64,000 nt of DNA, taken from positions 109,403,157 through 109,467,156 of the forward strand of contig NC_079492.1 in assembly GCF_020520425.1 (NCBI RefSeq), read 5' to 3'. The stretch comes from Spinacia oleracea. Lineage: Eukaryota > Streptophyta > Magnoliopsida > Caryophyllales > Amaranthaceae. This document shows, piece by piece, positions 3,055-57,152 of this stretch; positions within the stretch are counted from its first letter, which is position 1; each line of letters starts with the position of its first letter. A program made the position numbers and the translations under genes. The notes beneath the pieces were generated by a model that had not been told where the DNA came from, made no database searches, and saw only the letters and a list, made by a program, of their open reading frames with translations.

Positions 3055-3327
3055 CTTCCGTTTCGAAATAATATGAACACTTTTTTTTGGTAGAATAATA
3101 TGAACACTTTGACTTTCACACATTTCAATTTGACTATCATTTGTGATTTATGGTTAAGGAAAAATATAGTCATGCGGGGTCTTGTTTGATTCGTCTCGAT
3201 ATGTATTTTCGAAATATCAACTTTTTATAATGTTTACGAATACAAAATTAGAGATATCAATGTCCAAACATTTACATCGGCAAGCGTGAAAAGGTAAACT
3301 GTCCCCATAATTTCAAAACGGAGGGAA
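3055..3327. mobile_element. Degraded Stowaway-like MITE
   Basis: CTTCCGTTTCGAAATAAT pairs with ATAATTTCAAAACGGAGGG at the right end, with TA on both sides (3053-3054 and 3328-3329). The left terminal repeat has been interrupted by the micro-insertion at 3084-3093. Confidence 0.65.
3067..3110 (-). mobile_element. Micro-insertion (10 bp) with 17-bp target duplication
   Basis: AATAATATGAACACTTT occurs at 3067-3083 and 3094-3110. Between the copies lies only TTTTTGGTAG, which reads CTACCAAAAA on the minus strand. A poly(A)-ended insert flanked by a long direct repeat is the product expected of LINE-type target-primed reverse transcription, here with almost no element sequence. Confidence 0.7.
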
Positions 3328-3354
3328 TACACTTTAGTATTCGGATTTGCGTTC

Positions 3355-3600
3355 ATTAAGGCCACGTTCTATTCGACTTATTTTGACTGAACTTATATTA
3401 TCTGAACTTAATTGAATTTATCTGAACTTATGTTATCTGGAAAAAAAAAACCTATTTTGTCTAAAATAAACTTATTTGTATGAGAAAATGTGGAAAAAAA
3501 CTTATTTTTTCTGAACTTATACTATCTGAACCTAATTTAATTGAACTTAACTTAACTAAATTGAACTTATGTGGACTTATTTTGTTTGAGTGCAGCAGTC
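3355..3600. repeat. Clustered CTGAACTTAT motifs
   Basis: About ten variants of CTGAACTTAT/TTGAACTTA lie within 245 bp, in a block that starts GGCCACGTTCTATTCGACTT. This may be a small TIR element with repeated subterminal motifs. Clear terminal repeats and a target duplication were not resolved. Confidence 0.5.
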
Positions 3601-4112
3601 ATATACACTATGGTCTCTACCCATGATTATCATGAATGGACGAAACAGATAATGAGAATTGAAAATGAGGGACCAAAGTCGGATATCAAACCTCTGTGTG
3701 AACAAACAGAGCGATTTAGGACTGTAATTTCCCACTAAATCTCATTAAAAATACAGTTCACCTTAGTGTTACTAGCAGTAACCTAACATATCATTAAACG
3801 ACACCAAAAACCAGAGGAATCAAAACGTATAACAAGGGGAACTAAAACAGGTCAATAAGATAGCACCATAAATAACAAATGATAAACCTAAATTCTGAAA
3901 ATTCATACTGTCAATCAACAAGTTTTAAGGTATTAATCAATTCTATCATTGTATTACGATTTTCAATCACCAAAATTGAGTACTATAATCACCAATTCAC
4001 CATATTGTAGAGAAGGCTTCCCCAAAACAATTGCAGGGAAGTCTCAAACACTTTCAGATACTTGATTCATATTGAAATTCCACTAAAGTTAAAAAGAAAC
4101 TTAGTTGTTCAT
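3601..4112. other. Intergenic, no feature recognised
   Basis: AT-rich sequence with no credible coding frame or repeat on either strand. Confidence 0.5.
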
Positions 4113-4192
4113 GATTCCTGAGCAAGCTTCTCGAAGATATCGCTGTCTCTTTGATGCTCATCGCCTTGCTGGTATTCTGATGTCAGGGTTGG
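4113..4192 (-). pseudogene. Histone H2B gene fragment
   Basis: About 80 bases match the intact H2B gene at roughly 9826-9903 in the same orientation. Shared stretches include GATTCCTGAGCAAGCTTCTC, GATGCTCAT and GATGTCAGGG, with substitutions and a small deletion in between. On the minus strand the recognisable core reads [10 protein letters not shown] in one frame. Nothing of the rest of H2B is present. It looks like a captured or duplicated scrap of a histone gene, not a functional copy. Confidence 0.8.
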
Positions 4193-5920
4193 TTCCTTTT
4201 GAAACAGCATGGTGATGGTAATCTGACAGCATCCGAATCTCCAGACAGGCCGACAAGATCAATGTGTTAATCCTGATAAAAAGGTATACATTATTCATAT
4301 ATGGCTGTATCACATATAGCAGCAACTGTAGATATCTGAAAATTCAAATAAAAGCCAGTTAAATTTGCAGAATGTTAGTCACTCTCCGGTTGCACATTGC
4401 AGTACACGTACATGGTACCACTTAATGATGCACTGACCCCCAAGAATGTTACTGATGATAGCCAAGGATTAAGGACCATTGAACAAGTTTTACAGCTTCA
4501 CACACCTTGCCAAACATCCATCTCAAATATACACCCTTACTACTTAGACCAGGTTGTACAAATAAATAGTTCGGGGGCCAAATTCAGATATTTCTCATAG
4601 AATGCATGTAACAGGAAATTAACTATCTACCACATCACCACGTAGCAATCACATTATTCAAGTTATTGGCATAAACGCAGCATTCAAGTGCGGAACTAAG
4701 TGCTTACGTAACCTCGGGGAAGGAAGAAGGGTAATGCCAGAATAAAATCCTGTAACCTGGGCTGTAAGAAGCCTTTCATATATGCTGATAGGCTTCAGTC
4801 GGCAAAAATGTGGTGTTATTTATCCTTTAAACCTATTGGAATCAGATATCTCTTTTGCCTAATAATGGAGGAGGTTGAAAAATACTCTAGGAACTTCCTT
4901 TACTCCAAACAAGGCTCTAGTATTCCAGGATTTAAAAGCTATCCTAAAGTGGCAGGTGGCCGGAATGTCGCACCCACAAAGCAGCAGCCAATAAGCTGAT
5001 AAAAAGTGGGGCTCAGAAGATAGCAGACTTACAGTTAAAAATAATCTTTAATTGCTGAGATTTGACGAGTTCAGTTGGTAATGGGCACGATGTTCTGCAT
5101 CACACTACTTATTTCTTTCAAGTTTATATATGATGTTTGTGTGGCTCGTATGCTAAAGTTTCTTAGAGGAAGGTTTTGAGAGGTACAAGAGCTAGTTCAT
5201 GCGCATATGTGAGAGCCTTGAAAATGTTCAACTCTTCTTTTTCAGTGTAAATACTAAATAGTCTAAATCAGTGTGGACAAAGGCCAGTGATTTCCTGAAG
5301 GTCTTGGGTTTACAACGACCACTTAATGGTTTTGACTCACAACTGACTTGAGGTAAACTTGAGTCAAGCAGCCATCCCATATCGTCTGTACACAAAGGTT
5401 TGAGATCTTAAAACAGAATTTTAACCCAGATGGTTGGATAACAGAGATTATTTTGTAAGGTCCTGCAAATGAAGAGTTCCCCTTCCCAACTCTACCAAGA
5501 AGACGGGTGAATACTGATGTTTTTGAAGGGCCTGATACTACTGATCTAAGTGATGTATTCAACACTTTGAGCATACTCCGTAAAATAAATTAAAAAAATT
5601 AAAAAAAAAAAAGGTAATCCAAAAGCCTCTTGGAAATCAGCAAAATAACATCCAAACAACAGTCTGAAGGGGTGAGTAGCAGTCAGCAACAGCCCTTAGG
5701 CCATTCCCCATTACTTGTTATGAGCAAGCTTAAATAGTGGCTGTGTGCTTTTTAAAGAAATAGATCTATACTCGGAAACATAGCAATCCCCATTTACTTC
5801 TTAAAGCATAGATATTCCTTTCTACAACTTCCAGGTTGGATTCACCATTCATGTGGAAGAGCTCGACACCAGGAAAACTGATCTTAGACCAAGAAAACAG
5901 TAGAAAAACATACTTGGCAT
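4193..5920. other. Intergenic, no gene recognised
   Basis: Short open frames occur (for example minus 5323-5574, 83 codons, ending in LKSVVSQNH), but none shows a family I recognise. Fragments near 5740-5890 (minus) could be exon or transposon debris. No splice structure could be supported. Confidence 0.4.
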
Positions 5921-5924
5921 ACTA

Positions 5925-8900
5925 AATTATCCAACTTCAGGTACAGGTACAGGTGGTCAAATTTCTATCATAAGCCATATATTCCAAATTATCCAATTTC
6001 TATTATATTCCAAAATACAAAAGTTAGATCTGTCAGCTTCTCAAAAAATTTAGCCGTCAGGCCTGGTGGCACCCACATAAGCCTCAACTTCATAATCCTA
6101 TTAAGTAATTCGATCAGATGTATAATCAAATATCACTTGAACTAAACAAATTTACGAAAGGGGAGAAAAAGAAATGTGTTGAGAAAGGGCTCAGAAAACC
6201 TTGGATGCAGTACAAATAAAATGTTCTGATCATTCCTTTGATGTACTGCCTGCATATCACACACAGCTAAATCTTTGTAGACAGACCAGAATGTTAACCT
6301 GCTTCATAGATCAGCAACAAATTAGCATCCAATGATAATATTTACAAGGGTATGTTTTCTAGGCTACTTGAGAAAGTCACAGTTTGATATATACGATACA
6401 CAAGATACAGACAATATCAATATCATAATTGAGCTTATTCAATTTAAGATGCCAACTTCCAAGCCAAAATTTTAATAAGGCCTAAAAAGAAAATTACATC
6501 GAAATACGTCTCAATAAGTTAAAAATCAGAAATAATTAATAGCAATCAAACACTCCAACTTCCAAGCAATTCAGGCTAGCATATAAGGTCATAAAACACA
6601 TAAAGAGTGAAGGCGCAACAAAAAGGCTCGGAAAATCTTTGACTAGAAAGAGAGATGGCTCAGGCCAGGGAAATCCAAAAACCTCTAAAAAAACCAAGAA
6701 TTAAAAGCAAATAATGCAGCCAAAACAGAGGCATCCATTTCACACTATCAAATGCTTGCATATATCCAAAAGGATGAAAGTAAACCCAGACCAAAATCTC
6801 TACGTTTACCTCCTCTTGACATATTTGTGTGGGTTGTGCCTGATAACACTTAAAGAGAAACTCTGCCTTAGTTGGTTAGTTATTGGGAATTTTGCCCAAC
6901 AGTTAGTGGGCGTGTATCTCAGCCTGCCTAGCAAAACTAATGATTGCAGAAACAATCATAATAGCAGCATGATTTGCAACAGAATGACAGTCCCGGATCC
7001 GTAATCTACTTCATGTGTAATTTCATGCTTGATTCCTTCGCACAATGTACTCCCGTATTATTCATAATAGGAAGCACCATAAATTTTGAGTATAAACTAC
7101 AACAATTTCTGCAAAAGAACATTGGTGCCATATAAGGCTAAACTATTATCGTTGTGCAATATTTAGCAACCTGACCTAATTCATTCGCCCATACCATTCA
7201 CACCAGTCGCTCAAATGCAATGATAACGAACAAACTGAGGAATGAGCTTCTCCTGAATGCAAAGCATCTCCATAAATTATTTGAACACTTCAAGCAATAA
7301 TCACACAGAATATAATTTCAAATTAGTAGTATAAGAACTTGTATACAACAGTATTCAGACACTTGGGGCAAAGCATACTACATTATCCAACTACAGATTG
7401 AGGTGGTAAATTTTCAAAAATAAAAGTTAGGTTCCATATACTCCATTTATACCATGTCTCAATCAACCTCTCCGGAAATTTAGATGTGATAGTGTTATTC
7501 AGATGTATATAACCAACCATCATCTGTGAAGTGCACAAATTTACAAGGGCTCAGAAAACCTTGGGTGCAGTAACCAAACAGCAGATGCCAACTGTTCTCA
7601 TCAGTCAGTTGCTTCATTTCTAACACATGCAACTAAATGTTCATACGTGGACCAAAATGTTAATCGTACGTTGAAGAATGATCCAGGAAAATATATAAAG
7701 CAGACAGAACAACCATTATCTATACTCTATAGCATACCTGAACTGAATCAAAAAAGTTAAACAATTGGGGGTTTACTAATTTAAGAAAACAAACATAAGG
7801 TTAAAGCATACATGAACAATATGGGAAGCAGCATCTATATGATAACTGAGCTTATCAAATCAACAAGTCCAGAAAACAGAATAAAAACCACAAGGCGTAA
7901 GAAAGAAAATAAATTGAGCCGAAATTAGTAACTGCATCAAATCAGGTACAAAAACAATACCAAGAGCAATCAAACACTAACTTTCAAACTGCATCCAATC
8001 AGATTCGGAAACAATCCCAAGATCATGAAAATACATTACCAAAACTGGAACTGAATCATCTATATCAAACTATATCAATTGATTACATATGCTAGGCTTG
8101 TCTAAGAGAGGGAAAGGCAAGAACATAGCCAGATGAAACAGTAAATTGTAAACCCCTATCAAACTCTCCTAGTTTACCTCCTCCAGACATACTTGAATAT
8201 TCTCTGCAGTGAGCAAACATGTATCTAAGTTTGCAGACATTACAACATGATTTGCATTTACTGAGTGATCGCCAGATTCATAACCAACTCCATTCCTAAA
8301 TGTCCATGTTTGACTCCTTTGCACAACGTATTACTTAGGAAGTATAAATAACAAAAACCCTGCATAAGGAAAATACTGGCAGGGAAGAACCATATTATGC
8401 AGCATCAGGTCAATGAGAAGATAAATTTAAGACCGATCATCGTCAAATACACGAGACGAGAACAATTGCATTGATAATCTTGTTATTGCTAAATTCTTCC
8501 ATACCAGATAGAGCTCAACTTGTTATTGCCAAAAAGATCACAAGGCCTACGAAATAAAAATCTATCAAAATAGAGCTCAACTTACTCAACTATATCAGAT
8601 CAGAATCGGAAACAATCCCAAGAGCAATCAAACACTCCGATTGCAAGACAATTTAGGCAGAACCTTGAATACTTAGCAGTCAGAACATGAAAATACATAA
8701 ACCGAAAAGCGTGCAATAAGTGAATACTGTAAATTCCGGTCAAAATCTCTTAGTTTACAGCTTACCAAGGACATACTTGTGCCTGATTAGGAGATTCTCT
8801 GGCTTAGTTGTTGGGTGTTTCCCCGCTGTAATTAGACAGGTATCTCAGCCTGCCTATCAAAAGTAAGGTTTGCAGGAATTAAGCATCATAGCAGCCTGAT

Positions 8901-9000
8901 TTGCATTTACAAAATGATTTGCAGAAATTAATGATCTATTTGGTTCCGTTGCACAATGTACTGTATTAATTAAGGAGAAAAACAGAGGATTGAGCTTACC
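5925..9000. repeat. Three degenerate copies of a block of up to 1.4 kb
   Basis: The anchors recur in the same order. CTCAGAAAACCTTGG is at about 6190 and 7551. TCTCAGCCTGCCTA followed by a CAAAA run is at 6918 and 8852. A pair of GATTTGCATTTAC motifs marks the second and third copies, and GTTTAC followed by GACATA, TTTGTG or CTTGTG lines up near 6805, 8175 and 8755. I place copies at roughly 5925-7365, 7366-8575 and 8576-9000, heavily diverged and with deletions. The block lies just downstream of the H2B gene. No protein is encoded. Confidence 0.6.
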
Positions 9001-9674
9001 ATGATTAATGCTAACCATTTCCAACATAATTATCCCCTAAATTTCATTACTCCTTCATCTGAGTACAGGCAATAATCACAAAGAGCACACCACAGTTTCA
9101 TGTTATCTATACCAGCTTCCTTTCAGAATCATACTACAAAAAATCTCATAATTATTTACTTGCTGTTTATTGGAATCTGCAATTTCCCCATATATCAGAT
9201 TTAGTTCACATTTTATCTAAATGAAAACCTCTCCATTTTACATCACAACAAAAACTTTTCGCAGATTTTCCAATTTTTCATTAAACTGTTCACAAACCCT
9301 AACAGATCATCATCAAAAAGTTCGTGTGAAAATGACTGGTTCAAACAGAAATTAAAAAATTAACATTAATCAGATTCTATGTACGCCGAGACATAGAAAA
9401 TTTATTGTACATACATTAATCTGATCATTTCAATTACTGCATACGAAACATCAACCATTTCAGAAACAAAATGCAAAAGAAAAGGAAAATAACACAATGA
9501 TTTTCACAAAAGCATTTCCATTAAACTGCAAGATTAGATACATCATTACAAAACCTATTCAATAACAGAACAAAATACCACCATGACCCTATCCCACATC
9601 TCTCCCATTTTCACAACACAAACCCTAATTCCTACCATAAAACCCCAAATTCAACAACAGCACTAAAACCTAAT
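9001..9674. other. H2B 3-prime flank
   Basis: AT-rich sequence downstream of the H2B stop on the minus strand, presumably including its 3-prime untranslated region. No other feature seen. Confidence 0.5.
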
Positions 9675-10106
9675 TTAAGAGCTAGTAAACTTGGTAACAG
9701 CCTTAGTACCCTCAGAAACGGCGTGCTTAGCGAGTTCACCGGGAAGAACAAGCCTGACAGCAGTCTGAATCTCTCGGGAAGTGATGGTAGGCTTCTTGTT
9801 GTAACGAGCAAGTCTGGCGGATTCCTGAGCAAGCTTCTCGAATATATCGTTGATGAAGCTGTTCATGATGCTCATTGCCTTACTGGAGATTCCGATGTCA
9901 GGGTGAACTTGCTTGAGAACCTTGAAGATGTAGATCTTGTAGGTTTCAACGCTCTTCTTGTGCCTCTTCTTCTTCTTGTCTCCGGCAGCTGCTCCGGCTT
10001 CTTTTGGGAGTTTCTTCCCGGCCTTTGGCTTCTTCTCTGCCGGGGCTTTCTCAGCGGCGGCGGCCTTCTTCTCCTCTGCGGGCTTCTTCTCTGCCTTGGG
10101 CGCCAT
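9675..10106 (-). CDS. Histone H2B (intronless, complete)
   Basis: Encodes 143 residues of core histone H2B, which pairs with H2A in the nucleosome. Residues 1-50 form the basic Ala/Lys/Pro tail ([20 protein letters not shown] and onward, ending [10 protein letters not shown]). The histone fold follows from about residue 50, with [20 protein letters not shown], then [20 protein letters not shown] and [20 protein letters not shown]. The C-terminal AVTKFTSS contains the lysine that is mono-ubiquitinated in plant H2B. Length and absence of introns are normal for the plant family. A TATA box lies 108 bases upstream on the same strand. A partial copy of this gene lies at 4113-4192. The first ATG in frame matches the family start. 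Confidence 0.97.
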
Positions 10107-10213
10107 TGATGTGATGAGAGGGAAAACTTGGAAGTTTGTTGAGTTTTTCTGTTTATGAGTAGATAGAGAAAGAGAGATATTTGCGGTGTGTTTGAGAAAT
10201 TGTTTGAGATCTT

Positions 10214-10221
10214 TATTTATA
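10214..10221 (-). promoter_or_regulatory. TATA box of the H2B gene
   Basis: TATAAATA on the minus strand, 108 bases before the ATG. Further upstream, near 10416-10424, CCGGATCGG carries the CGGATC core of the plant histone octamer element, and GACGTGGCA near 10380 is a G-box-like site. Those last two are suggestive only. Confidence 0.65.
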
Positions 10222-10448
10222 GGAAATCAAGGTTTGGTCTTATTGGACAAATTTGGGAGGCACGGATTGATGAGGTGGACTTGAGAATATGCGTTGATTT
10301 GTTCCTCTTTGAGTATTGATCCAACGGGTGAAATTAAAAAGAATTGAGAGGGAAAATGCCGCGCGTGTTTGGTTGTCAAAGACGTGGCAGAAATTAATAG
10401 GTTTGCTTGTTTTTCTCCGGATCGGTGACATGGCAGTAAGACAAACCT

Positions 10449-10492
10449 GGGCTCTTTACATTTTTTTTTGGTCGAAAGGGCTCTTTACATTT
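10449..10492 (-). mobile_element. Micro-insertion (14 bp) with 15-bp target duplication
   Basis: GGGCTCTTTACATTT is present at 10449-10463 and 10478-10492. The insert TTTTTTGGTCGAAA reads TTTCGACCAAAAAA on the minus strand. This is the same architecture as the events at 3067, 19529 and 57108. Confidence 0.75.
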
Positions 10493-10508
10493 GCGCTCGA
10501 ATTTTTAA

Positions 10509-10900
10509 GGATTTTTTGACATTTAAAACCTTAAAAAATTAGTTTTTGTAATTTAATATCTTTTATTTTTTATTACTCCGTATTAGACACTTTAAAAATA
10601 AAAAATATTAGACATCAACACCACTTTAACGATTTTTGTTAGAAAAAATGTTACGGAGTAGTTTTTAACTATGCTAAAGTTCCTAAAGCATGATTTGGTG
10701 GTAAACAATTCCTTCTACCATCAAATTTTGCTTTGGGAGCTATAGCATGGTTAAAAACTAACGTTTTTTCTTATGAAAATTGTTAAGCGGTGTTGATTTT
10801 CAAATTTTTAGTTTTTTAAGGTGTTTAAACATAATACAAATTAAGTAAGGTGTTAAATTACAAAAATTTGTTTTATTAAAGTGTTAAGTGACAAAAATTC
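10509..10900. mobile_element. MULE-type MITE, copy 1 (392 bp)
   Basis: The ends GGATTTTTTGACATTTA and TAAGTGACAAAAATTC are inverted repeats. The flanks AATTTTTAA (10500-10508) and AAATTTTAA (10901-10909) form a 9-base target duplication with one mismatch. Most of the element is a long foldback, including AAAGCATGATTTGGTGGTAA and its near-inverse. A second copy is at 20978-21364. It has no coding capacity. Confidence 0.75.
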
Positions 10901-11033
10901 AAATTTTAATGTGATTTTGGCTTCAATATCTTACCTCAAGTCTTATAGAGTGTGTGATCAGCCACGCTATCAAGTGGCATATTCACACTTATAAATAAGA
11001 TCAGTTTATTTAAAGTTCAGGGCGTTGGTCAAC
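10901..11033. other. Short spacer
   Basis: Nothing recognised beyond the MITE target duplication. Confidence 0.4.
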
Positions 11034-11455
11034 GGAACCTAAAAGTAACAGTATACAAGGAACCTCTAACTTAAAATTGAAGAATTTGCAATAAAACAAG
11101 AAAAATAACAACAAATGCAACGTATAAGTAACACCAGCATAGAAATTCAAGTAACAACAGTCTATACAAGGAACCTCTAACATTAAATTGAATAAGCTAC
11201 AATAACTAAAAGTAACACCAACATATAAAATCAAGTAACACCAGTCTATACAAGAAACCTCTAACATGAAATTGAAGAACATGCAATAAAACAAGAAAAG
11301 TAACAACGAATACAATGTATAAATAAAAAGTCAAATAACACCAATGGAACCTCTAACATTAAATTGAAGAACCTGCAATAAATACAAGAAAAGTAACCGC
11401 TAATACAATGTACAAGTAAAACCAACATAGAAAGTCAAGTAACACCCTTCAATAA
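11034..11455. repeat. Degenerate tandem repeat, four units
   Basis: Units begin with GGAACCTCTAAC (or GAAACCTCTAAC) at about 11034, 11170, 11253 and 11346. They continue with AAATTGAAGAA, CAATAAAACAAGAAAA and AAGTAACACCA. Spacing is uneven (136, 83 and 93 bases) because of internal deletions. No coding potential. Confidence 0.75.
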
Positions 11456-12540
11456 CTTTCTCCGTAGTTGTTACGCGCGAGGGATTTACACGTGCATCAC
11501 ACCATCAAGTTGAAGGTGTGGCTAGACACAAAGGATACACGTTGATTGTTTTTTACTAGATGTAAGCATGTAATTCACAAATCTTTATTCATGTGTATTA
11601 TGATTGAAATTTATGATAAATTAGTATAGCGCTACGTTTTACGTTGTAACAAATCTATCGTATAACAGAAAAAAGACGGAGTGATCAACTCAATTTATCC
11701 AAAACTTTTTTTTTGTATACGAGGTATATCTTATCCAAACCTACCATTTATTGGTCTAGTGGTATATATTGAGGTCTCGTGTCCGTATGATAGGGCATGT
11801 GTTTAAGTATAATAAAATGTTTCATAAAGATTAAGGAGACGTAATGCATGGCAAAGGCATTATATATAAGTAGTTCAATCGGTCAACATTGCCACTTATC
11901 TATCAACCATTATCTTTTTCAAGTTAATATTTTGTTTCCTTTAATGTGATAATCAAACAAAGCTTAAAATTTCCGTTGTCGGCTATATATTGGAGAAGTA
12001 TTGTATTCTAACTCCAATTCCTTATGTTAATCTGTCTTTTTGTTTAATTATTTTGCAAATCACAAAACCTTAATCAAATTTGTAAATTAATCGATTTATC
12101 CATCTTCGATGTGTAGTTGAAATCACGTAATATTTCAAAATTATTTTATCATATTATTTCATACATAATATTTATATGATATTATCCTTAATGACATGGT
12201 GATTTTATGTGGCGATCTAAGTAATCTCATTCGTCCTTTTTACTTAAGTATTAGTTATACATTTATTAATTTTAAAATAAAATAGAAATCTTATTTTTTA
12301 TTGGTTGAAATCTAATGAAGTGTTATATGTCTCTCTAAAAACTCAACAAGTATGTCCGCATTAATTATATATACTAGATTTAACTCATATTTGTATTTTT
12401 CTCTTAAAATTATTTTGCACTTTTTGATGAGTCTGCAAAAACAAATGTAACGTTGCAATAACAACGACTCGTCTTCCAAATACTATCTCTAATTCCCTAG
12501 ACCAAATCACTCAGCTCGTTTTTTTCCTGGAAACAATATG
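11456..12540. other. AT-rich intergenic stretch
   Basis: No gene seen. A tRNA-like module with ATTGGTCTAGTGGTATA (box-A-like) lies near 11750-11820. A possible micro-insertion has TTATCCAAA at 11695-11703 and 11731-11739, flanking a T-run of nine. Confidence 0.4.
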
Positions 12541-12544
12541 TAGA

Positions 12545-19473: not shown

Positions 19474-20562
<1,089 letters not shown>

Positions 20563-20929: not shown

Positions 20930-21955
20930 TTTTATTTATATGTCTTGATCAAAGAATTTTTGTATGGTAGAAATTTTGGATTTTTTGTCATTTAACACCT
21001 TAAAAAAATTAGTTTTTGTAATTAAACACCTTACTTATTTTTTATTATATTTAAACACCTTAAAAATCTAAAAATTTATAAATCAACACCGCTTAACGAT
21101 TTCCATAAGAAAAAAACGTTGATTTTTAATCATGCTATAACTTCCAAAGCATAATTTAATGGTAGAAGGAGTTGTTTACCACCATATCATGCCTTGAGAA
21201 CTTTAGCATAGTTAAAAACTAATGTTTTTTCTAACAAAAATTGTCAAGTGGTGTTGATTTCTATTTTTTTTGGTTTTTTTAAGATGTTTAAAAACAATAA
21301 AAAATAAGTAAGGTGTTAAACTACAAAAACTAGTTTTTTTAAGGTGTTAAATGACAAAAAATTCAGAAATTTATTTAGAGTATCATTTCTCGAATTTTAG
21401 TAGATTTTTAATTGTCTAGAGTTTTTCATGGTATGTAATGTAATTATGTAAATTACACCCGTCTTAAGTTCCTACTTGCCACCTACTTTTCCAATTTGTT
21501 GCAATTCTGCCAAAAACTTCCCGCCAAGAAATGTTTTTATTTTTATATGTCTTGATCAAAGAATGTTTTGTATGGTAGAAATTTATTTGGATTAACATTT
21601 CTCAAATTTTAGTAGTTTTTTTAATTGTCTAGAGTTTTTCATGGTATGTAATGTAATTATGTAAATTTCACCCGTCTTAAGTTCCCACTTGCCACCTACT
21701 TTTCCAATTTGTTGCAATTCTGCCAAAAACTTCCCGCCAAGAAATGTTTTTATTTTTATATGTCTTGATCAAAGAATGTTTTGTATGGTAGAAATTTATT
21801 TGGAGTAACATTTCTCAAATTTTAGTAGTTTTTTTTAATTGTCTAGAGTTTTTCATGGTATGTAATGTAATTATGTAAATTACACTCGTCTTAAGTTCCC
21901 ACTTGCCACCTACTTTTCCAATTTGGCGCAATTCTGCCAAAAACTTCCCGCCTAA
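20930..21955. repeat. Tandem array of 213-bp units upstream of the F-box gene
   Basis: Three units share TATGTCTTGATCAAAGAAT, TGTATGGTAGAAATTTATTT, ATTGTCTAGAGTTTTTCATG, CTTGCCACCTACTTTTCCAA and AACTTCCCGCC. Units start at about 20930, 21538 and 21751. The last two are offset by exactly 213 bases with very few differences. The first is split by the MITE at 20978-21364. The array ends about 200 bases before the F-box ATG, so it forms most of that gene's proximal promoter. Confidence 0.9.
20978..21364. mobile_element. MULE-type MITE, copy 2 (387 bp)
   Basis: The ends GGATTTTTTGTCATTTAACA and TTAAATGACAAAAAATTC match the 10509-10900 copy. The flanks AGAAATTTT (20969-20977) and AGAAATTTA (21365-21373) form a 9-base duplication with one mismatch. 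The intact neighbouring repeat units show the empty site (GTAGAAATTTATTTGGA), which confirms the insertion point. Confidence 0.88.
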
Positions 21956-22160
21956 AAAGTCCCTGTTTTCTAAGCAATGTGTTGTCGCAATATTAGTGGA
22001 AGTCTATGTTAGACGAAAAAAATACTTAAAGAAATTTGACGAACAGTATACTGTATGAGGAAAAGGCTCACACAATCTAAATTAAATCATACCTACCCTT
22101 CTCTCTCCTCGTTACAACAAACACAATCGCTATTAACCCTAAAGCGAGCTTCAAATAACA

Positions 22161-35628: not shown

Positions 35629-36604
35629 GGCCTTGTTTGGCAAATGGTTTTTTGCTGGCTTTTGGATATTGGCTTTTTAATCTGGTCAAACAGCGAAAAA
35701 ATATGTTTGGTAACTGGCTTTTTAGCTTGCTGAAAAGCCAGCTTTTCCGCCAAAAATGAAAAGCTAGTAACACTAGCTTTTTGGAGTTGGCTTTTGGCTT
35801 TTTACTATCTAAATTACTTTTTTATCTTTAATAATTAATAATTAATAATTTTTAATTAATAATTTTTAATTTTTAATTTTTAATTTTTAATTTTTAATTT
35901 TTAATTTTTAATTTTTAATTTTTAATTTTTAATTTTTAATTTTTAATTTTTAATTTTAATTTTAATTTTTAATTTTTAATTTTTAATTTTTAATTTTTAA
36001 TTTTTAATTTTTAATTTTAATTTTTAATTTTTAATTTTTAATTTTAATTTTTAATTTTTAATTTTAATTTTAATTTTAATTTTTAATTTTTAATTTTTAA
36101 TTTTTAATTTTTAATTTTTAATTTTTAATTTTTAATTTTTAATTTTAATTTTAATTTTTAATTTTTAATTTTATTTTTAATTTTTAATTTTTAATTTTTA
36201 ATTTTAATTTTAATTTTTAATTTTTAATTTTTAATTTTTAATTTTTAATAATTAATAATTAATAATTAATAATTAATATTAATAATTAATAATTAAAAGT
36301 TAATAATTACGGAGTATTAATTAAAGACTAATTATTAATACTATTGCATAAAGTAATTTATTTTTAATTTATATTTTATTTATTTGTAATTACGTGTATT
36401 GAAAAATGAATAACAGACATTAAATGTCCTTAAATGTCATTTTACATAGCTACAGCCAACAGCCAAAAATGATTTTACCAAACATATTTGTAACCAATCC
36501 ATAGTCAAACAGCCAACAAAAGCAGCCAACTTGAACAGCCAGTCAAACCAGCCAAATAAAACAGCCGACAGCCAACAGCCAACAGCCAATTGCCAAACAG
36601 GACC
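35629..36604. mobile_element. PIF/Harbinger-like MITE expanded by an AT array (976 bp)
   Basis: The left end GGCCTTGTTTGGCAAATGG and the right end, inverted, GGTCCTGTTTGGCAATTGG form the terminal repeats. ATT borders both sides (35626-35628 and 36605-36607), a 3-base duplication. Both arms carry many subterminal GGCTTTT/CAGCCAA motifs. The middle 480 bases are an AATTTTT array. It lies directly upstream of the RRM gene's probable leader exon. Confidence 0.75.
35819..36300. repeat. AATTTTT minisatellite
   Basis: Dozens of AATTTTT heptamers mixed with AATTTT hexamers are flanked on both sides by AATAATT runs. It contains no G or C for over 450 bases. It is confined to the interior of the surrounding MITE. 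Confidence 0.95.
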
Positions 36605-39806: not shown

Positions 39807-40654
39807 TGATGAATTTGTTCAGTTTTCGGGGTTGAATCATTGTTGCCTATGTAAATGAAGTGGTTTTAGTTTTACTGATGGAATACAATACAATGTTTCC
39901 AGATATATGTGGAACATGAGCTTATTTGATGATCTGGAGCAAGAAATTGGAGGTGATTATGTTTGTTGGCAGCTGTGACATAACAAGGGTACATCTTCTT
40001 TGTTTGGGTGGTAAGCAAGCTATGGGATCAATGAGGAAAACCTCCCCGTGCAATATCTTTTCAGTTGATCCTCTGTGTCTGTGATAATATTTACTTGGAG
40101 TTGTAATTTCCGTTGTTTCTCTTGGTCATGCATTAAGACTGGAGTCGTTTGTAATCTATAAACGTGAAATTCTCTGGTTACATCTATTTGAGTAATGTAA
40201 TCCATGAAGCAGGCAGGAGCTAAAATGCTGGTTTACAATTAATCGTGTGATTGGTTAATGATTAGGTAAACAATAACAAAACCCTGCTGTAAATCTGTGA
40301 TGCTAGACGGGGATATTGCTCCACCCATGACCATAGCTAGACCTGTCAAAACTGATCCAGACCTGAAAAATTGACTCGATTGATCCGATCTGTAACCCAA
40401 ATTGGTTTGAAACGACGATCTGAAATTAACCCGAAAATCAAATACACCCGACCTAAAATCGAAACTGATCCGAAAGTGATTTGACCTGTATTGACCTGAT
40501 ACCCGAACGGCCTGAACCGAAGTACCCGAAACCGAATTAACCCGAACTGATCTTCACCCGACACCACATTAACCCGAATCGAAAATAACTGAAAAATTTA
40601 AATTAACCCGAACCGATCGAAACCGAAGAGCAACTCGAATTTACCAATTAATTT

Positions 40655-41627: not shown

Positions 41628-41638
41628 TTTAATATATA

Positions 41639-48500: not shown

Positions 48501-48520
48501 TTCTACCATCCCCCTTCCAC

Positions 48521-48528
48521 TATATAAA
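48521..48528 (+). promoter_or_regulatory. TATA box of the H2A.W gene
   Basis: TATATAAA, 119 bases before the ATG. It is followed by a CT-rich leader typical of plant histone genes. Confidence 0.75.
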
Positions 48529-48646
48529 CCTCTCCCTCCATCATAAACTTCCATCTCACTTCAAAATCTTCATTATCTCTCTCTCTCCTCTATAACTCTC
48601 AACTTTCTCTCACTAGAAGTTTCTCAAAAATCTCCAAATCTAGAAA

Positions 48647-49270
48647 ATGGATTCAGCAGCAGGAGGAAAGGGTAAGAAGGGAGCAGCAGGAAGGAAGGGC
48701 GGAGGCCCCAAGAAGAAGTCGGTTACTCGCTCCGTCAAAGCTGGGTTACAGTTTCCAGTCGGAAGAATTGGGCGTTTCTTAAAGAAGGGTCGTTATGCTC
48801 AGCGTGTTGGTTCTGGTGCTCCTGTTTACCTAGCCGCTGTTCTTGAGTACCTTGCTGCTGAGGTAGTTTCTCTCTCCTAACTCATTTCAATTTTCCGATT
48901 GTTTCTGTTAATTTGTCTGAATCTGAATCTGTTTTGTACATAGTTGTTGATTAATTCACAGATTTAATTGAAAAATGAATTGATTTTGGATCTGGATTCT
49001 AAGTTTTGATTTAATTGTAAAATGAAGGTATTGGAATTGGCTGGAAATGCTGCAAGGGACAACAAGAAGTCAAGGATAATCCCAAGGCACGTTCTTCTAG
49101 CAGTAAGGAACGATGATGAGCTCGGAAAATTGCTAGCAGGAGTTACAATTGCTCATGGAGGAGTCCTACCAAACATCAACCCAATATTGTTGCCAAAGAA
49201 GACAGCAGAAAAGGCTCCCAAGGAAGCCAAGCCTTCGACCAAGGCTGCCAAATCCCCTAAGAAAGCATAG
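48647..49270 (+). CDS. Histone H2A.W (heterochromatin variant), two exons
   Basis: Exons 48647-48862 and 49028-49270 join to 152 residues. The intron follows LEYLAAE, a usual site in plant H2A genes. The histone fold is standard ([55 protein letters not shown]), as is the docking region [15 protein letters not shown]. The extended basic tail ends KSPKKA. This SPKK-type minor-groove-binding motif defines plant H2A.W, the variant placed in transposon-rich heterochromatin to help compact it. No SQ motif (H2A.X) and no H2A.Z signature are present. A good TATA box precedes it. Confidence 0.95.
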
Positions 49271-49900
49271 GATGTTTATCGTTTCTGGTCCAAGTTAGAA
49301 AGATGGATGGTTTGTTGGGTTTTGATTTACTGCATTTTGTATCTACTGTTAGTACGAGTTCTAGTTAGGGTTTTTAATGAAATAGGAAGGTTGTATTAGT
49401 AATGGGTTGAATAGGAATTGGATCAATATCTGATTGGTCTATTTTCTGTAATCATATGGTTATTAATCAAAAATATTTATTTCTCCTACTTACGTTTGTT
49501 ATCTATTGCTTCTTTAGCCCTGTCAATTGAAATTGAATTTTACTTGAAGTTTCACCTTTGTAATAAACTAAATTTCAATTAATCAATCAAATTGAAGTTT
49601 CACCTTGAATCATATTGTAAACTTAGTGGTTTTTGAATTTGATGAATTAAATTGAAGATGATAGTTTTACTTGATAATTGCTTATCTGAATGTTCTGAAG
49701 AATTAGACAGTAATGAAAGTGGTTTTATTATCTGGAAGTGTAGATGCAGTATACAAGTGATGTTTTAGAATAGAGATGGATGTTTTTCGGAAAACAAAAA
49801 ATGAAGATTGTTTTGAAATGTTGAGAGCAAGTTACCATTTCATCAACTAACCGATTAGCAAATTTGTCCAAAATAAACGAGATTCTGTAATCAAGACTTG
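49271..49900. other. H2A.W 3-prime region and spacer
   Basis: A TTTTTAATGAAATAGG stretch near 49371 may lie near the polyadenylation site. No other feature. Confidence 0.4.
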
Positions 49901-49907
49901 AGTCAGT

Positions 49908-50530
49908 TTGAAGAAAAAGTTGATGATAGCACATATTCATTTCAAGAGCCTAGGACCATTATCTGCTGAGCTAACTGCAATCAAGGAAGGGCTCCTTATA
50001 GCTTGGGAAAGAAAAATAACTCGACTGGAGCTTGAGATAGATGCTAGCACACTGAAATACATGCTTGAAAATCCTGGTGGATATCTAGATCACCAGTTCG
50101 CTTCGCTAATCAATGATGTAGTTACCCTTCTCAACAAGAATTGGTCTGTCAACATCTTCCATGATGTAGTTGCTCATGGGCTTGCTGAGATTGGTCGTAA
50201 GATGTCTATAGTCAAGACTTATCACTTCCAACCTCCCCCGAATGTTCTTGATGATTACATGAAAGAATCGATTCCAAGGGATGCTGCTTAGTTCAGATGC
50301 TGGACGGGTCTTGAAGGATGAAGTACAGTGAACAGTTTGCTAACATGTCTAACTTCTCCTCTTTTGCTTTGTATTATAAACTCCAGGTTAATCATTGTAC
50401 TGTCTAGGCTTTATTGGTTTTTGGTTGATGCCTTTGACAGCTCTAGCTGTTCTCGTTGTATGAAAACTCTTATAGAGGCCTTCATCGCCTCCTATTAATA
50501 TAATTCCTATCTTTGCATAAAAAAAAGATA
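49908..50530 (+). pseudogene. RNase H-like (RVT_3) LINE 3-prime fragment with poly(A)
   Basis: A 127-codon frame encodes the C-terminal RNase H-like domain found at the end of plant LINE ORF2. SAELTAIKEGLLIAWERKI and LELEIDASTLKYML hold the acidic residues (E, D). ASLINDVVTLLNKNWSVNIF and DVVAHGLAEIGRKM follow. The usual HVYREAN-x-AADxLA is altered here. The sequence continues to TTTGCAT and an A8 tract at 50518-50527, which looks like a retroposed 3-prime tail. The upstream RT is absent. It is probably a 5-prime-truncated LINE. A domesticated RNase H-like gene is less likely but not excluded, since this frame is intact. Confidence 0.7.
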
Positions 50531-50890
50531 TGACAAGTTTACAAGTCAGAAGTCAGAAGTCAGAACTAACACACTAGGCAGTTGTAGGGTTGAAGTAGCT
50601 CTATCTGAACTAATTTCCTTTTTCTACATGAAACCATTTCTTGACTAAGGTTTCTAAACAAAAAGGAAACAACCATTGAAAATCTCATCAACCGTTATGG
50701 AAGTAGCAAATTACATATTCAATGGGCACTGCCATCATATTCATAGCCATTCCCTAGTGTAATTGTACATGAAAGCTTATTTTCATACTAAATTACTGAT
50801 GATGGAATCGCAAATGTCTAACTGTACATACCATAAAGTCAGGAATCGTACAGACTGCAGAACTATATACTGAGACCTTATTGTGACCAG
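50531..50890. other. Spacer
   Basis: AT-rich with a short AAGTCAGAAGTCAGAAGTCAG repeat at 50543-50565. No gene. Confidence 0.4.
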
Positions 50891-50905
50891 TATTACAAAC
50901 AACTT

Positions 50906-51264
50906 TTTTTTTTGGGTGAAAAAGGATCCATATATTGAAATCAAGTTTTAGGCATATAGCCTATTACAATCCAAAAGATAATAATTAAGGAGCAGTGAAA
51001 TTTATTTATTGATTTCTAAAACTACAGCCGTAGATTTCTTCACCAAAGCATTGCCCTTCTAATCTTACTTGCGTTTAGGCCCTGCTGGCTGCTGCAACTC
51101 CCTGCACAAAGTCACCATATTGCTCCAACAATCAGCACCAACAATCTCCTTATTTATCATTTTAACCACAACCAAGGCAATCTGATATTCTGATAATATC
51201 AAAGCATTCTCCATGTTTTCAACTACTTACCAAGTTTATGGATACAAAAGCAATCTGATCCATG
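50906..51264 (-). mobile_element. 5-prime-truncated retroposon (about 359 bp) with long TSD
   Basis: TATTACAAACAACTT (50891-50905) and TATTACAAACAGCTT (51265-51279) flank a segment that on the minus strand ends CTTTTTCACCC plus A9. The poly(A) tail and the 15-base target duplication (one mismatch) are LINE-type. No domain is readable in the short body. It gives a normal-sized comparison for the micro-insertions. Confidence 0.75.
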
Positions 51265-51279
51265 TATTACAAACAGCTT

Positions 51280-51706
51280 ATTCAACTACTTGTTAAAGCT
51301 TATAATGAATCAGCTATAGACAATCTGACACTACAGAATGCAAGCAAAGCAATGTAGCTTGACTAGTAACAAGCAACAGGTTGAGTTAAACAAGCTACCA
51401 GGAAGAAACTCTCAGTCATGGCATCACTAATTAGACAAGTCTTCACACACAAAATACTCAGGATAAGCTTCACAAATTATCCACTCAGCAACTCATACTA
51501 TCATTTTCATCAGTAATGAGGAGCTAAGTACATTATTGCCATATATCACAATGCAGTTAGTATCAAATGCAAGTTATTAGTTTCATGACAACATTCAGGA
51601 CCTCATAAGAGTTATAAGTTATAACCAAACTTGTGTTTCAAAATAAAGCAGCAGTTTATTACAAAGTGAAGCAATCCTCAGATAACCCAACACGCAATAT
51701 AAGTTC
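51280..51706. other. Spacer
   Basis: AT-rich; nothing recognised. Confidence 0.4.
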
Positions 51707-51711
51707 CAAAT

Positions 51712-52088
51712 TGTTAGATCTCGCAGCGGAAATTTGGCTTCTACTAGATAATATGAAATCGATACCTCACAAATAAATAATATTTTGTGGATAAATAAAT
51801 AACACTTATGAAGGAAATAATAAATGTTACATAAGAAAATATAAACTTTTCTTAAACTAAACTTTTATATGATGTGAATTGTATCGAATTGAATTCTACA
51901 TTACGCTTTACACAACTTATAAGCTAAATAAGGAAAAACAATTATTGGAGCATGTTGGAAACAACCCATAATATTTTTCAACCATTCATTTTTCTTCTCC
52001 TATAGTTTCTCTTCTCCTTTCACATAATTTAACTCTTCTTAAAATTAGATATAATTAATTTAGGAATTAATGATATCCAATTCTCACA
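51712..52088 (-). repeat. 3-prime LTR of the copia element
   Basis: 377 bases, TG...CA, and a direct copy of 56324-56707. Confidence 0.93.
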
Positions 52089-52220
52089 ATTCTCCACCTC
52101 GTTCATAATTTGAAAACATTCAAATTTTGGACGAACAAATTGCGTTATAACAATGATTGCCTACGTACCCTCGTCCGGGATCAAACCAACCGTAGTTCCA
52201 TTTATTTTTCCATGTAGTGC

Positions 52221-55200
52221 TTAACATGGGACAATGTTTAACAATTTCAAACAATGTTGGAACTTGCTTCCTGACACAACTTTGGTTAACATATCTGCGG
52301 GATTCTCATCTGTATGCACCTTCATAAGGGAAATACAACCTTCCTCTATGACCCCTCCAACAAAATGATATCTCACATCTATATGCTTGGTACGAGCATG
52401 ATGAACCTGATTTTTAGCCAAATGAATTGCACTTTGACTATCACAACTCAGATTCACACATTCCTGCTTCAACCCCAAATCATCTAGAAATCCCCACAAC
52501 CACAATGCTTCCTTGACTCCTTTTGCCATAGCCATGTATTTGGCCTCTGTAGTAGATAGACCCACCGTGGCCTGTAACATTGATCGACAACTAACTGGGT
52601 AACCCTGCATTTTAAACACATAACCAGTAGTAGATCGTCGTTTATCTAGATCACTGGCATATCAGAATCAACAAAACCATTTATCCGACATGTATCTCCA
52701 CCAAAGCACAAACCCGTGTCAACAGTACCTTTTAAGCACCCTAAAACCCATTTCACAGCTTCCCAATGTCTCTTTCCTGGATTCGCCATGAATCTACTGA
52801 CAAAACTAACTGCTTGTGAAATTTCTGGATATGTACACACCATGGCGTACATTAAACTGCCAACTGCACTAGCACAAGGTACATTATCCATGTATATGTC
52901 TTATCTTCCACTGTAGTGGGAGATTGTTTACCAGAGAGTCTAAAATGTGGAGCCAATGGAGTTACTACTGACTTAACATTTTTCATCCCAAATCTTTCAA
53001 TAACCCGCTCAATGTAGCCTTTCTGGCTCAAGGACAATTTTCGATTTGATCTCTCTCTCCTAATCTCCATACCCAATATTTTCTTTGCAGCTCCCAAATC
53101 TTTTGTCTCAAACTCTTCACCGAGTTGAGTTTTTAAACTATTTATATCCGCCTTCCTTTTTGAAGCAATAAGCATGTCGTCCACATACAATGGAAGATAA
53201 TATAATCACCTCCACGAAGTTTACGAATGCATATACAACAATCATAATTACTTCTAGAAAACCCTTGCTTTAACATTAAGGAATCAAATCGCTTGTATCA
53301 CTACGGTGGGGATTGCTTCAATCCATAAAGTGATTTCCTCAAGCGACATACCTGACTCTCTTTACCCTCAACCTTGTACCCCTCAGGTTGATACATATAG
53401 ATTTCCTCATCCAAATCACCGTGTAAGAAGTCTGTCTTCACATCAAGTTGTTCCAGCTCAAGATCACCATGAGCAACGAGACTTAATAGCTCGAATAGAA
53501 GTATGTTTTACCACCGGAGATAATATCTCATTGTAATCAACACCTTCTTTCTGTACAAACCCTTGGCCACTAGCCTAGCCTTATATCTTATACCATCGGT
53601 CTTGGAAGAATCCTCTTTTCTTTTATACACCCACTTACAACCACTAGCAGTCTTTCCCACGGGCAATGAGACTACCTCCCATGTCTTGTTTTTATGAAGA
53701 GACTCCATAGCAACCAACCAACCAACTCTCTCTATCCTTCTCTTTGATAGCTTGTCTGAAGGTGATCGGCTCATCATCCTCCACCAATAGTGCATATTCT
53801 ACCAAGTTAATCTGCCCGCAATGCCCTAGAGGTTTGTCTGACCCAAACTTCTGAACTGATTTATAATTTCTCTTTGGCCTAATGGTTGCCAAAGATTCCT
53901 GCTACTGTTGTTGTTGTAACACATGTACATTTTCCCGTTGAATCTTCTCATGTTTAAGATCATCCTCCTCATCAGTTTGATTAACACAAGGATGCTCCAC
54001 ATGAACATGACCAAAATCTGGTTGGTCTCTAAATTCTATCTCCGCCACTTGATTATTTGAAGTAGTCCCGATATCGCAATTATTTGACACCATAGCTTTG
54101 GATAAAGCTATCATAGATCTTTAATCAAAGGTCACATCCCTGCTGATTACAAATTTAGAATCCTCTATACTCCAAAGACGATATCCATTAACGCCTTTGG
54201 GATACCCCAAGAATACTGCTTTCTTGGCTCTTTCATCAAGCTTGTTATTCTTGACATGATAATAAGTTGTGGACCCAAAGACTCGAAGTCTCTTGTAATA
54301 TGCATGTTCCCCTGACCACACCCTGTAAGGTATGTCACCATCTAAATAAGAATGTGGGGATCGATTCACTATATAACAAGCTGTAACAACCGACTCTGCC
54401 CACCATTCCTTGCCTAAACCAGAATTAGAGCGCATACACCTAGCCTTCTCAAGTAGTGTATGATTCAGTCTTTCCGCGACTCCATTCTGTTGTGGTGTCT
54501 CTCACTGTCCAGTGTCTTACAATGCCTTCCTGATTACAAAGCTCCTTGAAAGCTTCCTCTGTGTACTCCGCACCATTATCAGACCGTACAGTTTTTAGCT
54601 TTCGACCCGTTCTGTTCTCAACCATTGCTCTCACCCGCTTGAAAATGTCGAATACCTCATTCTTATGCTTGAGAAAGTAAATCCAAGCATATCCAGATTA
54701 TCAATAAATGTAACAAAGTACCTGAAATCACCCTTGGAAGAAACTTTAATCGGACCCCAAACATCTGTATGCACATGGTCTAATAACCCTCTGCTTTTGT
54801 GCTTGCTTGTAGAGAACTTTACCCGTGCTTTTTCATACACACAATGTTCACAAAATTCCATTTGTGGTTTCTTCATGTTCTTCAATAAACCTTGTCCGCA
54901 AAGCAATGATAGACCTTTTTCCGACATAAGGCGCATGTGCCATATCCTAGTGCATTCTGTTTGGTCTTTACTTCCACTGATTCCAACTGCTAAATCACCT
55001 GTAACAGTTGTCCCCTAAAGAGGATAAAGATTACCATGACGAATCCCCTTCATCACTACCAAGGAATCACGAACAACTTTTAATACTCCATTTTCCATGG
55101 ATATTTTGCAACCATTTTTCTCTAATAACCCAAGATAAATAAGGTTTTTTCGCAAATCTGGGATGTGTCTCACATCCTTCAAGGTTATTATTATTCCATC

Positions 55201-56221
55201 ATGCATCTTGATTCAGATAGTACTTAACCAGACAGTCTTGCAAGCATGATCATTTCCCATCAAAATCGTGCCACCGTCCAAACTTTGATAAGTTGTAAAC
55301 CACTTTCTGTTTTGGCACATATGGTGTGATACTCCTGAATCAAGCATTCATTTACCAGATATTTCAGTGCATTGTTCTGAAACGTAGTAACAATAATCTT
55401 CCTCGTCATTTGAGACAAACTTGCCTCTTGTTTTTCTTGTTGTTTTCCTCTGGAATTGTTGTTGTCCGACCGCTTGAATGTAGCCCTCTTATTTGGGCAA
55501 TTTACTTTAAATGACCAAGCTCACCACATTTGAATCATGGTCTTTCCGCAAGAGGTCTAGACTTTCCTCTCTTGCCTCTTCCTCTTTCATTAATCCTTCC
55601 TCTAGTTGTAAACAATCCCTGAGCTTGTTCCCTGAACGTGTATTCTCCTCCACTGCTAGACAACGTCCCACTTGTAGAACCTTTTGAAGATCATCCACTA
55701 AAAGTGATGTTCTAGTTTCATCCATGGTTAGAGTATCACCTACAAGCATCAATGTTTGAACTAGATTTTCATAGGACATTGGTGAAAGTAATAACATGAG
55801 CGCTTGGTCTTCCTCTTCTATCTTCACATCTATATCCATTAAGTCTGATATAATCCTATCAAACTTATTGATATACTCACGAATTGAGGCGCCTTCTTCC
55901 ATCTTTCATGTATACAATTTGGATTTTAGATAGATCCTGTTTGTTAGAGTTTTCGTCATGAAAGTTGTCTCTAACTTAGCCCATACGCCAGCAGCCGTTG
56001 CTTCTTCATTTACCAAGAAAAACAGCATCCCTCTCAAGGCACAAGATTATGACTGCTCGTGCTTCAAGATCTAACTCTTCCCAATCCTCATCCTTTATAT
56101 CTCCGGGTTTTTGTTCTTTTCCCGCTAGCACTTTCTGCAACTTTTGCGAAACTAACAAATTTTTAATTTGCATCCTCCAATAGGAAAAAATCATTTTTCC
56201 CATTGAACTTTTCAATTTCAT
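52221..56221 (-). pseudogene. Copia Gag-Pol polyprotein, multiply broken
   Basis: Read from 56221 downward, the frames give the following. Gag: EGASIREYINKFDRIISDLM near 55890, then a CCHC knuckle FKCGELGHLK near 55530 in another frame. Protease-region KDVRHIPDLRKNLIYLGLL near 55160. Pre-integrase and integrase: FCEHCVYEKARVKF, DHVHTDVWGPIKVSSKGDFR, then VRSDNGAEYTEEAFKELC near 54580. Core end: VFGSTTYYHVKNNKLDERAK. RT: WVYKRKEDSS, then YVDDMLIASK near 53190. RNase [21 protein letters not shown] and a final [10 protein letters not shown]. Many frameshifts and stops separate them, so no polyprotein can be made. Confidence 0.93.
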
Positions 56222-56323
56222 ATTTCCTAACTTTTATCGTTCCACTAGTACAAGCCATTATAAATATTTTTCAAAATAAAATTTTTAACCACTTAATATT
56301 TTAACGTTGGCTCTGATACCAAT

Positions 56324-56707
56324 TGTTAGATTTCGCAACGAAAATTTAGCTTCTACTAGATAATAAGAAATCGATACCTCACAAATAAATAATATTTTGT
56401 GGATAAACAAACAACCCTTATGAAGGAAATAATAAATGTTAAGTAAAAAAATATAAACTTTTCTTAAACTAAACTTTTATATGATGCGAATTGTATTGTA
56501 TTGAATTCTACAACACTTCTACATATTTATAACAACTTATAAGCTAAATAAGGAAAAACAATTATTGGAACATGTTAGAAACAACCCATAATATTTTTCA
56601 ATCATTCATTTTTCTTCTCCTATAACTTCTTTTCTCCTTTCACATAATTTAACTCTTCTTAAATTTGATATAATTAATTTAGGAATTAATGATATCCAAT
56701 TCTCACA
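56324..56707 (-). repeat. 5-prime LTR of the copia element
   Basis: 384 bases. It contains a TACATATTTATAAC stretch absent from the other copy. Confidence 0.93.
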
Positions 56708-56712
56708 CAAAT

Positions 56713-56895
56713 AAACATAGCCCATAAATTATGTGATATCCAAACTTCCTAAGAACTGAGTTTCAAACTTCAAAGCATTATGTGCTATCCAAATTTCCCA
56801 AGGTATTGAGATCTATGTCCATTTCCGATGGAACCAAAGATTCATGTGTTCTTTTGGCTGTGGGATGTAATAGACTAAATCAAAATGGCTCTTAA
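56713..56895. other. Spacer with a short internal duplication
   Basis: ATTATGTGATATCCAAACTT and ATTATGTGCTATCCAAATTT occur about 50 bases apart. No gene. Confidence 0.45.
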
Positions 56896-56899
56896 AACC

Positions 56900-57072
56900 T
56901 CTTCGCTTCCTTTTCATGAAGTAGAAGATGGTTGTCTTGTTGTCGTCCCGTTATCGCTTTTGAGTCAATTGAAAACAACCTCTCTGCAATTGTAGGGGTA
57001 AGGTTGCGTACACCCGACCCCCTTTACCCCGCTTCTTGCGGGAGTCTCTTTGAGGCAACGGGGTAACGATAA
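56900..57072 (+). mobile_element. Au-like SINE
   Basis: GAAAACAACCTCTCTGCAAT followed by GTAGGGGTAAGGTTGCGTAC, ACCCGACCCCCTTTACCCCGC and GCGGGAGTCTC is the conserved core of the plant Au-type SINE family. The 5-prime tRNA-like head is poor, and the 3-prime end decays after GGGTAACGATAA. Confidence 0.65.
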
Positions 57073-57107
57073 ATTGATAATGAATGATTTGGATCTATGA
57101 CATTCTG

Positions 57108-57152
57108 AAGTTCTAAACAAATCTTCTCAAAAAAAGAAAGTTCTAAACAAAT
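57108..57152 (+). mobile_element. Micro-insertion (15 bp) with 15-bp target duplication
   Basis: AAGTTCTAAACAAAT occurs at 57108-57122 and 57138-57152. The insert CTTCTCAAAAAAAGA is again a few bases plus an A tract, this time on the plus strand. Confidence 0.75.

Follow-up and report, generated by a model that had tools for sequence, protein, structure and literature searches.

Short poly(A)-tailed insertions with target duplications in a spinach genome window, consistent with aborted target-primed reverse transcription

Insertions of human L1, a long interspersed nuclear element (LINE), carry poly(A) at their 3' end. The part of a human L1 survey used here covers insertions of 50-10,000 bp and reports, for full-length L1, duplications that peak at 14-16 bp and the target TT/AAAA (PMC2912911). 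For maize LINEs, the sections drawn on describe target duplications, usually a poly(A) end and a bias towards gene-rich regions, in a catalogue that accepted only elements of 3-10 kb carrying a LINE protein motif (PMC2774510). A poly(T) insertion in exon 25 of human NF1 is, in the portion of the report cited, suggested by its authors to be what is left of an Alu, L1 or processed pseudogene after severe truncation (PMC3219598). We analysed a stretch of 64,000 nucleotides of the Spinacia oleracea genome (hereafter the window), in which four poly(A)-tailed inserts of 10-17 bp are each flanked by an exact direct repeat. Like 5'-truncated L1 insertions, which are made by target-primed reverse transcription, these sites have 3' poly(A). 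Their duplications of ~15 bp and A-rich target start also resemble those of the survey, but at 10-17 bp they fall below its size range (PMC2912911) and appear to keep almost nothing of the RNA except its tail. The NF1 insertion is likewise tail-only, as far as the cited portion describes it, but it is a single human disease allele, whereas the plant insertions are several and have clear duplications (PMC3219598). Maize LINEs share the duplications and the poly(A), and the catalogue criteria given in those sections exclude a 10-17 bp class (PMC2774510). Truncated LINEs are not dealt with in the consulted parts of a survey of spinach repeats (PMC6337768), and in a literature search of partial coverage, which is not proof of absence, we found no account of this size class in plants. 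Severe LINE truncation is already known; what is new is the extreme shortness and the skew toward micro-insertions.

The window was placed at C6:109403157-109467156, and genome searches covered the assembly of 894,210,420 bases in 242 contigs. Four exact direct repeats (17, 15, 15 and 15 bp) bracket inserts of 10, 14, 17 and 15 bp, respectively. All four repeat-flanked A-tailed micro-inserts of the preliminary description were recovered in place and with exact repeats, and we regard the observation of these structures as confirmed. Their parts are as follows, in coordinates of the window.

3067..3083, minus strand: site 1, target duplication copy (second in poly(A) orientation), exact 17-bp repeat
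3084..3093, minus strand: site 1, insert CTACC+A5 (A8 counting target As), without counterpart in 7/7 fetched sister copies
3094..3110, minus strand: site 1, other target duplication copy, exact 17-bp repeat, single in 7 sister elements
10449..10463, minus strand: site 2, target duplication copy, exact 15-bp repeat
10464..10477, minus strand: site 2, insert TTTCGACC+A6 (A9 counting target As), 14 bp
10478..10492, minus strand: site 2, other target duplication copy, exact 15-bp repeat
19529..19543, minus strand: site 3, target duplication copy, exact 15-bp repeat
19544..19560, minus strand: site 3, insert TTTCATC+A10 (A12 counting target As), without counterpart in 20/20 fetched sister copies
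19561..19575, minus strand: site 3, other target duplication copy, exact 15-bp repeat
57108..57122, plus strand: site 4, first target duplication copy, exact 15-bp repeat
57123..57137, plus strand: site 4, insert CTTCTC+A7+GA, 15 bp
57138..57152, plus strand: site 4, second target duplication copy, exact 15-bp repeat

The poly(A) lies on the minus strand at sites 1-3 and on the plus strand at site 4. Read on one strand, all four inserts have the same build: 5-8 bases with a terminal C lead into an A run at the second repeat copy. Site 1 reads AAAGTGTTCATATTATT, CTACC A5 and an exact second AAAGTGTTCATATTATT; site 2 reads AAATGTAAAGAGCCC, TTTCGACC A6 and an exact second AAATGTAAAGAGCCC; site 3 reads AACCACTAAAGGGAA, TTTCATC A10 and an exact second AACCACTAAAGGGAA; and site 4 reads AAGTTCTAAACAAAT, CTTCTC A7 GA and an exact second AAGTTCTAAACAAAT, so that at this site GA intervenes between the A7 and the second copy. 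Inserts of 10-17 bp leave no space for the internal Pol III promoter boxes of a short interspersed nuclear element (SINE). Site 2 lies a few bases from one copy of a palindromic element of ~410 bp, resembling a miniature inverted-repeat transposable element, which is found twice in the window (10499-10908 and 20970-21373).

The window contains 17 direct repeats of at least 12 bp that are 8-30 bp apart (low complexity excluded), and in 4 of them an A run directly adjoins the second copy. Dinucleotide shuffling in 2-kb blocks, repeated 300 times, never gave four (mean 0.007, largest 1). The reverse arrangement, with the A run beside the first copy, is absent from the window at 14 bp or longer and occurs once at 12 bp (21309). 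As a further control the sequence was read backwards, which keeps composition, runs and arrays and destroys direction. In the first setting (repeat of at least 12 bp, A6 or more, gap of at most 60) the forward reading gave 4 matches, namely sites 1-3 and an array match at 1138, site 4 being missed for its GA; the backwards reading gave 3, namely the array (1132) and two matches of 12-13 bp in the palindromic element at 20970-21373. At 14 bp or longer the backwards control contained the array match alone (817-1253 array). A strict rule was applied to 324 kb, comprising the 64-kb window, a 60-kb neighbour (L033-L038) and 20 grid stretches (200 kb). It gave 8 forward matches, against 1 in reversed sequence and 0 in 100 shuffles; among the forward ones L005 and L019 were judged local duplications and the one at 40062 is doubtful. 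The reversed match is the L005 locus, also counted forward, and is the sole opposite arrangement of at least 14 bp in the 324 kb. This rule missed a clear case (L035:196). With a tract-based rule the forward and backwards counts were 13 and 5 for repeats of at least 10 bp, 7 and 3 for 12 bp, and 6 and 1 for 14 bp. Several repeat rules were tried; the window sites pass all of them, except that site 4 was missed in all four settings of one scan. The excess over shuffled sequence expected for such a class is seen both in the window and across the 324 kb.

Concerning the history of the sites, two of them lie in dispersed repeats and can be compared with sister copies. The host of site 3 has 206 candidates in the genome, of which the best 40 were scored; 20 of the 39 other matches were fetched, and all 20 have a single target copy without the insert. 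Both window target copies of this site carry a C (TTTCCCTTT) that is absent in 20/20 sisters. The host of site 1 is another dispersed repeat, with 2292 candidates, again scored for the best 40; 7 of the 39 other matches were fetched (5 of them picked because the match spans the site), and all 7 have a single target copy and no insert. The combination ATGAA is present in both duplication copies of site 1 and in none of the 7 sisters; farther along, 10 bp are missing from the window copy. Insertion with target duplication, as had been proposed, is supported by empty sister sites at both loci where the comparison could be made.

The bases before the A runs were compared with those of LINE-type elements in the same genome. 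A runs of at least 7 have [CT]C as the two preceding bases in 62 of 330 cases, and those with a nearby duplication of at least 10 bp in 10 of 13. Outside the window the counts are 6 of 8 tract matches versus 48 of 258 tracts, the former falling to 5 of 8 if L014, judged false, is not scored as a success. At the window sites [CT]C directly precedes the A run in 4/4. A profile search with RVT_1, in which the best 150 of 15970 candidates were scored, probably recovered many long terminal repeat (LTR) elements; matches of 750-790 bases (several with 1118-aa frames) were taken as LINE-type, and RVT_3 is found downstream in the 3 such loci scanned, of 8 fetched. The longer RVT_1 matches are thus probably LINEs, judged by match length and downstream RNase H. 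Six tails were read at the 8 loci (GCC, GCC, CCC, TCC, TGT and ATC), 5 of them with [CT]C; three loci are one family, the ATC of L032 was chosen among four A runs, and two loci have no readable tail. The LINE-like character attributed to the tails thus agrees with this sample. A retroposon in the window, described earlier as 359 bp, is real, with an insert of 358 bp and a duplication containing one mismatch; its duplication was located by a mismatch-tolerant ranking, which had strong backwards matches and was used solely for this purpose.

50906..51263, minus strand: 358-bp retroposon, tail TTTTTCACCC+A run, with a 16-bp duplication (one mismatch) at 50890-50905 and 51264-51279

At 49902-50526 in the window, an A8 tail comes after a frame of RNase H type (RVT_3), and the stretch looks like the 3' end of a 5'-truncated LINE; no target duplication was found round this tail.

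The duplication starts with AA in 4/4 window sites (chance ~0.10 each), as would follow from annealing of a T-rich primer to poly(A). Of the target motif TTTT/AA considered in the preliminary description, the sites thus show the AA half.

We consider it likely that LINE-type machinery made each site independently by target-primed reverse transcription, halting just past the poly(A). An endonuclease would nick an A/T-rich target, and the T-rich 3' end of the target would prime on the poly(A) tail of the RNA. Reverse transcription would then halt after the tail and ~5-8 further bases (occasionally more), and second-strand cleavage and repair would leave target duplications of 15-20 bp flanking an insert of 10-17 bp. 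The observations behind this reading are insertion with duplication at both sites open to comparison, a fixed polarity, C-ending tails and the AA start of the duplications; from them we infer the enzyme, the LINE that acted, the RNA that served as template, the aborted synthesis and the cause of stopping. Aborted target-primed reverse transcription, as first proposed, thus keeps its support from insertion with duplication, polarity, LINE-like tails, an A-rich target start and further members outside the window. The additional claim that a single LINE family made all four sites is not supported, as the tails differ and the site 2 tail word is rare genome-wide.

Several points weigh against target-primed reverse transcription or narrow it. 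The backwards controls of the looser rules are not empty (3 against 4 forward in the first setting; 5 against 13, 3 against 7 and 1 against 6 by tracts). The non-A parts are too short for alignment to any LINE, the tails differ between sites, and TTTCGACC+A8 has 6 matches genome-wide versus 3 for the reversed word. The bases before the duplications (TC, GC, TC and TG) differ from the TT of the L1 motif. The host copy of site 3 lacks 7 bp at the target edge, and none of the fetched copies shows the exact allele that preceded the insertion; the C in both site 3 copies and the shared 7-bp loss indicate that the duplication most likely postdates those changes. The empty-site comparison applies to sites 1 and 3 only: the flank of site 2 is nearly single copy (14 matches, no other of which spans the site), and the left flank of site 4 is repeated, with no other match reaching the insert among the best 40 scored. 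Also, members are rare in the 200-kb grid: L018 is its single clear case, and the repeat of L011 measures 10 bp.

The same machinery may have acted on other RNAs, with mRNAs or SINE RNAs serving in trans as the source of the tails in place of LINE RNA; this is compatible with target-primed reverse transcription by LINE-type machinery, and we hold it to be possible, if rather unlikely. The C before poly(A) could also suit mRNA cleavage sites, and no site tail matches a fetched LINE-type end exactly, though the YC ending is shared. On the other side, LINE-type tails here are mostly YC, and the tail of the 358-bp retroposon is of the same kind.

The main rival is double-strand-break repair, in which fill-in of staggered breaks would produce a tandem duplication, its copies separated by a few filler bases (patch-mediated or polymerase-theta type). 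Tandem duplications with filler from break repair are described in plants, and patch-mediated tandem duplications in rice reportedly have short direct repeats, whose copies are in some cases separated by extra bases. The short repeats are alike, but the poly(A) polarity seen here is not expected of such duplications. Repair would account for repeat pairs in the window without an edge A run (32511 and 42514) and for the neighbour candidate at 40062, whose insert has a 12-nt match 70 bp away, as local templating predicts. It gives no account of the A run abutting the second copy, the preceding C or the AA target start, and six of the seven inserts tested have no match within 2 kb that exceeds the control-window maximum in length. 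Filler of this origin has no polarity and is often locally templated; we found polarity, and signs of a local template in 1/7, and we consider break repair improbable. Slippage, by which a tandem duplication arose first and an A run grew inside it, fits the variable A-run length among six sequences of an amplified insert-bearing element (L068, below), but it is contradicted at sites 1 and 3 by the 7/7 and 20/20 fetched sisters that lack the duplication and the non-A bases, leaves 5-8 non-A bases lying outside the repeat, and is very improbable.

Further members of the class are found outside the window. The adjoining 60 kb contains one clear case (L035:196; 17-bp duplication, CCCTTC A7 TAAA), a case with a 10-bp repeat (L034:6347) and the doubtful one at 40062 (in L037), which has one mismatch, low-complexity surroundings and the 12-nt local match. 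The clear case in the 200-kb grid is L018:8468 (20 bp with one mismatch, CCCCTC A8), for whose flank no spanning sister copy was found among the best 40 scored; the grid case with a 10-bp repeat is L011:1376. The array at 817-1253, the 26-bp pair of L005, L014, L019 2614 and the matches at 21000-21340 were dropped before clear cases were tallied. In the window, the copies of an exact 14-bp repeat enclose a 19-bp insert at 61990-62036; A5 lies at the edge, without a preceding C, and the structure is a possible relative of the class.

A search starting from the tail was also made. TTCTC+A9 occurs 562 times genome-wide versus 418 for the reversed word, counts that are not independent as repeat families contribute to them. 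Among the first 20 listed of the 562 tracts, 13 of which belong by eye to three repeat families, one (L068, at C1:1957270) has a 19-bp exact duplication round a 32-nt insert. L084 was not counted: an 11-bp repeat was flagged there, but it is a member of a repeat family in this sample. The tail word of L068 is found at 15 exact places in the genome versus 1 for the reversed word, and the five fetched of its 14 further places (L086-L090) share flanks, duplication and insert. Together the six have inserts of 31-33 nt, a 19-bp duplication and A runs of 11-13, and over the shared stretch the A-run length is the sole difference. The idea that the L068 tail is the 3' end or source of a repeat family was withdrawn for this reason; the common flanks, duplication and insert point to one micro-insertion in an element that later multiplied.

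Extrapolation from one grid case per 200 kb gives ~4,500 sites genome-wide (95% interval ~110-25,000). The suggestion that the class is abundant draws on four members in the 64-kb window and more outside it, against one clear case in the 60-kb neighbour and one in the 200-kb grid; it is partly supported, being plausible for the neighbourhood and no more than possible genome-wide. Concerning size, the contiguous 124 kb contains five clear micro-insertions versus one longer tailed insertion (the 358-bp retroposon) with comparable duplications, plus one doubtful case and one uninspected 192-bp candidate, which was left uncounted. The scan for tail plus duplication gave 11 matches in 62 tracts, and backwards 6 in 49, two with inserts below 30, both of them 12-mers. 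A 2834-bp candidate for a longer relative was rejected, as it is a large duplication whose copied part includes the sequence ahead of the A run. If truncation were spread over a multi-kilobase RNA, stubs with fewer than 10 non-A bases should be rare. We offer, tentatively and with the odds somewhat against it, that in this plant the commonest lasting product of LINE endonuclease near genes is no LINE copy; it would be a 10-20-bp tail stub flanked by a duplication of 15-20 bp, made where reverse transcription seems to have a distinct and often used stopping point just beyond the poly(A). This argument from skew rests on small numbers, and short inserts are easier to spot.

If the class is general, catalogues that require kilobase lengths or protein motifs, the maize one among them, would leave many LINE-machinery events in plant gene space uncounted, and stubs would account for some A runs and short direct repeats. 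The spectrum of their sizes could then probe the stopping points of target-primed reverse transcription. In comparisons between accessions, a stub also polarises the locus that carries it. Were the stub reading true, the main effect of LINEs would be to supply A runs and short direct repeats, and stubs landing in other transposons could spread further, as L068 may have done.

Several genes are found in the window by Pfam, and we read it as gene-rich. Two Copia-like elements, recognised by eye from their frames, lie at 51709-56707 and 58065-59847, with LTR-like pairs of 91% and 89% identity; the sole long frame listed in the second is gag-like and encloses a short frame on the opposite strand. 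A 382-bp stretch is repeated at a shift of ~213 bp with 95.8% identity (21365-21744 and 21577-21958), a recent tandem duplication, and 61192-61449 is a perfect head-to-tail duplication of 129 bp. Also, a long array of TAATTTT-type units of 6-7 bp is present at 35846-36230.

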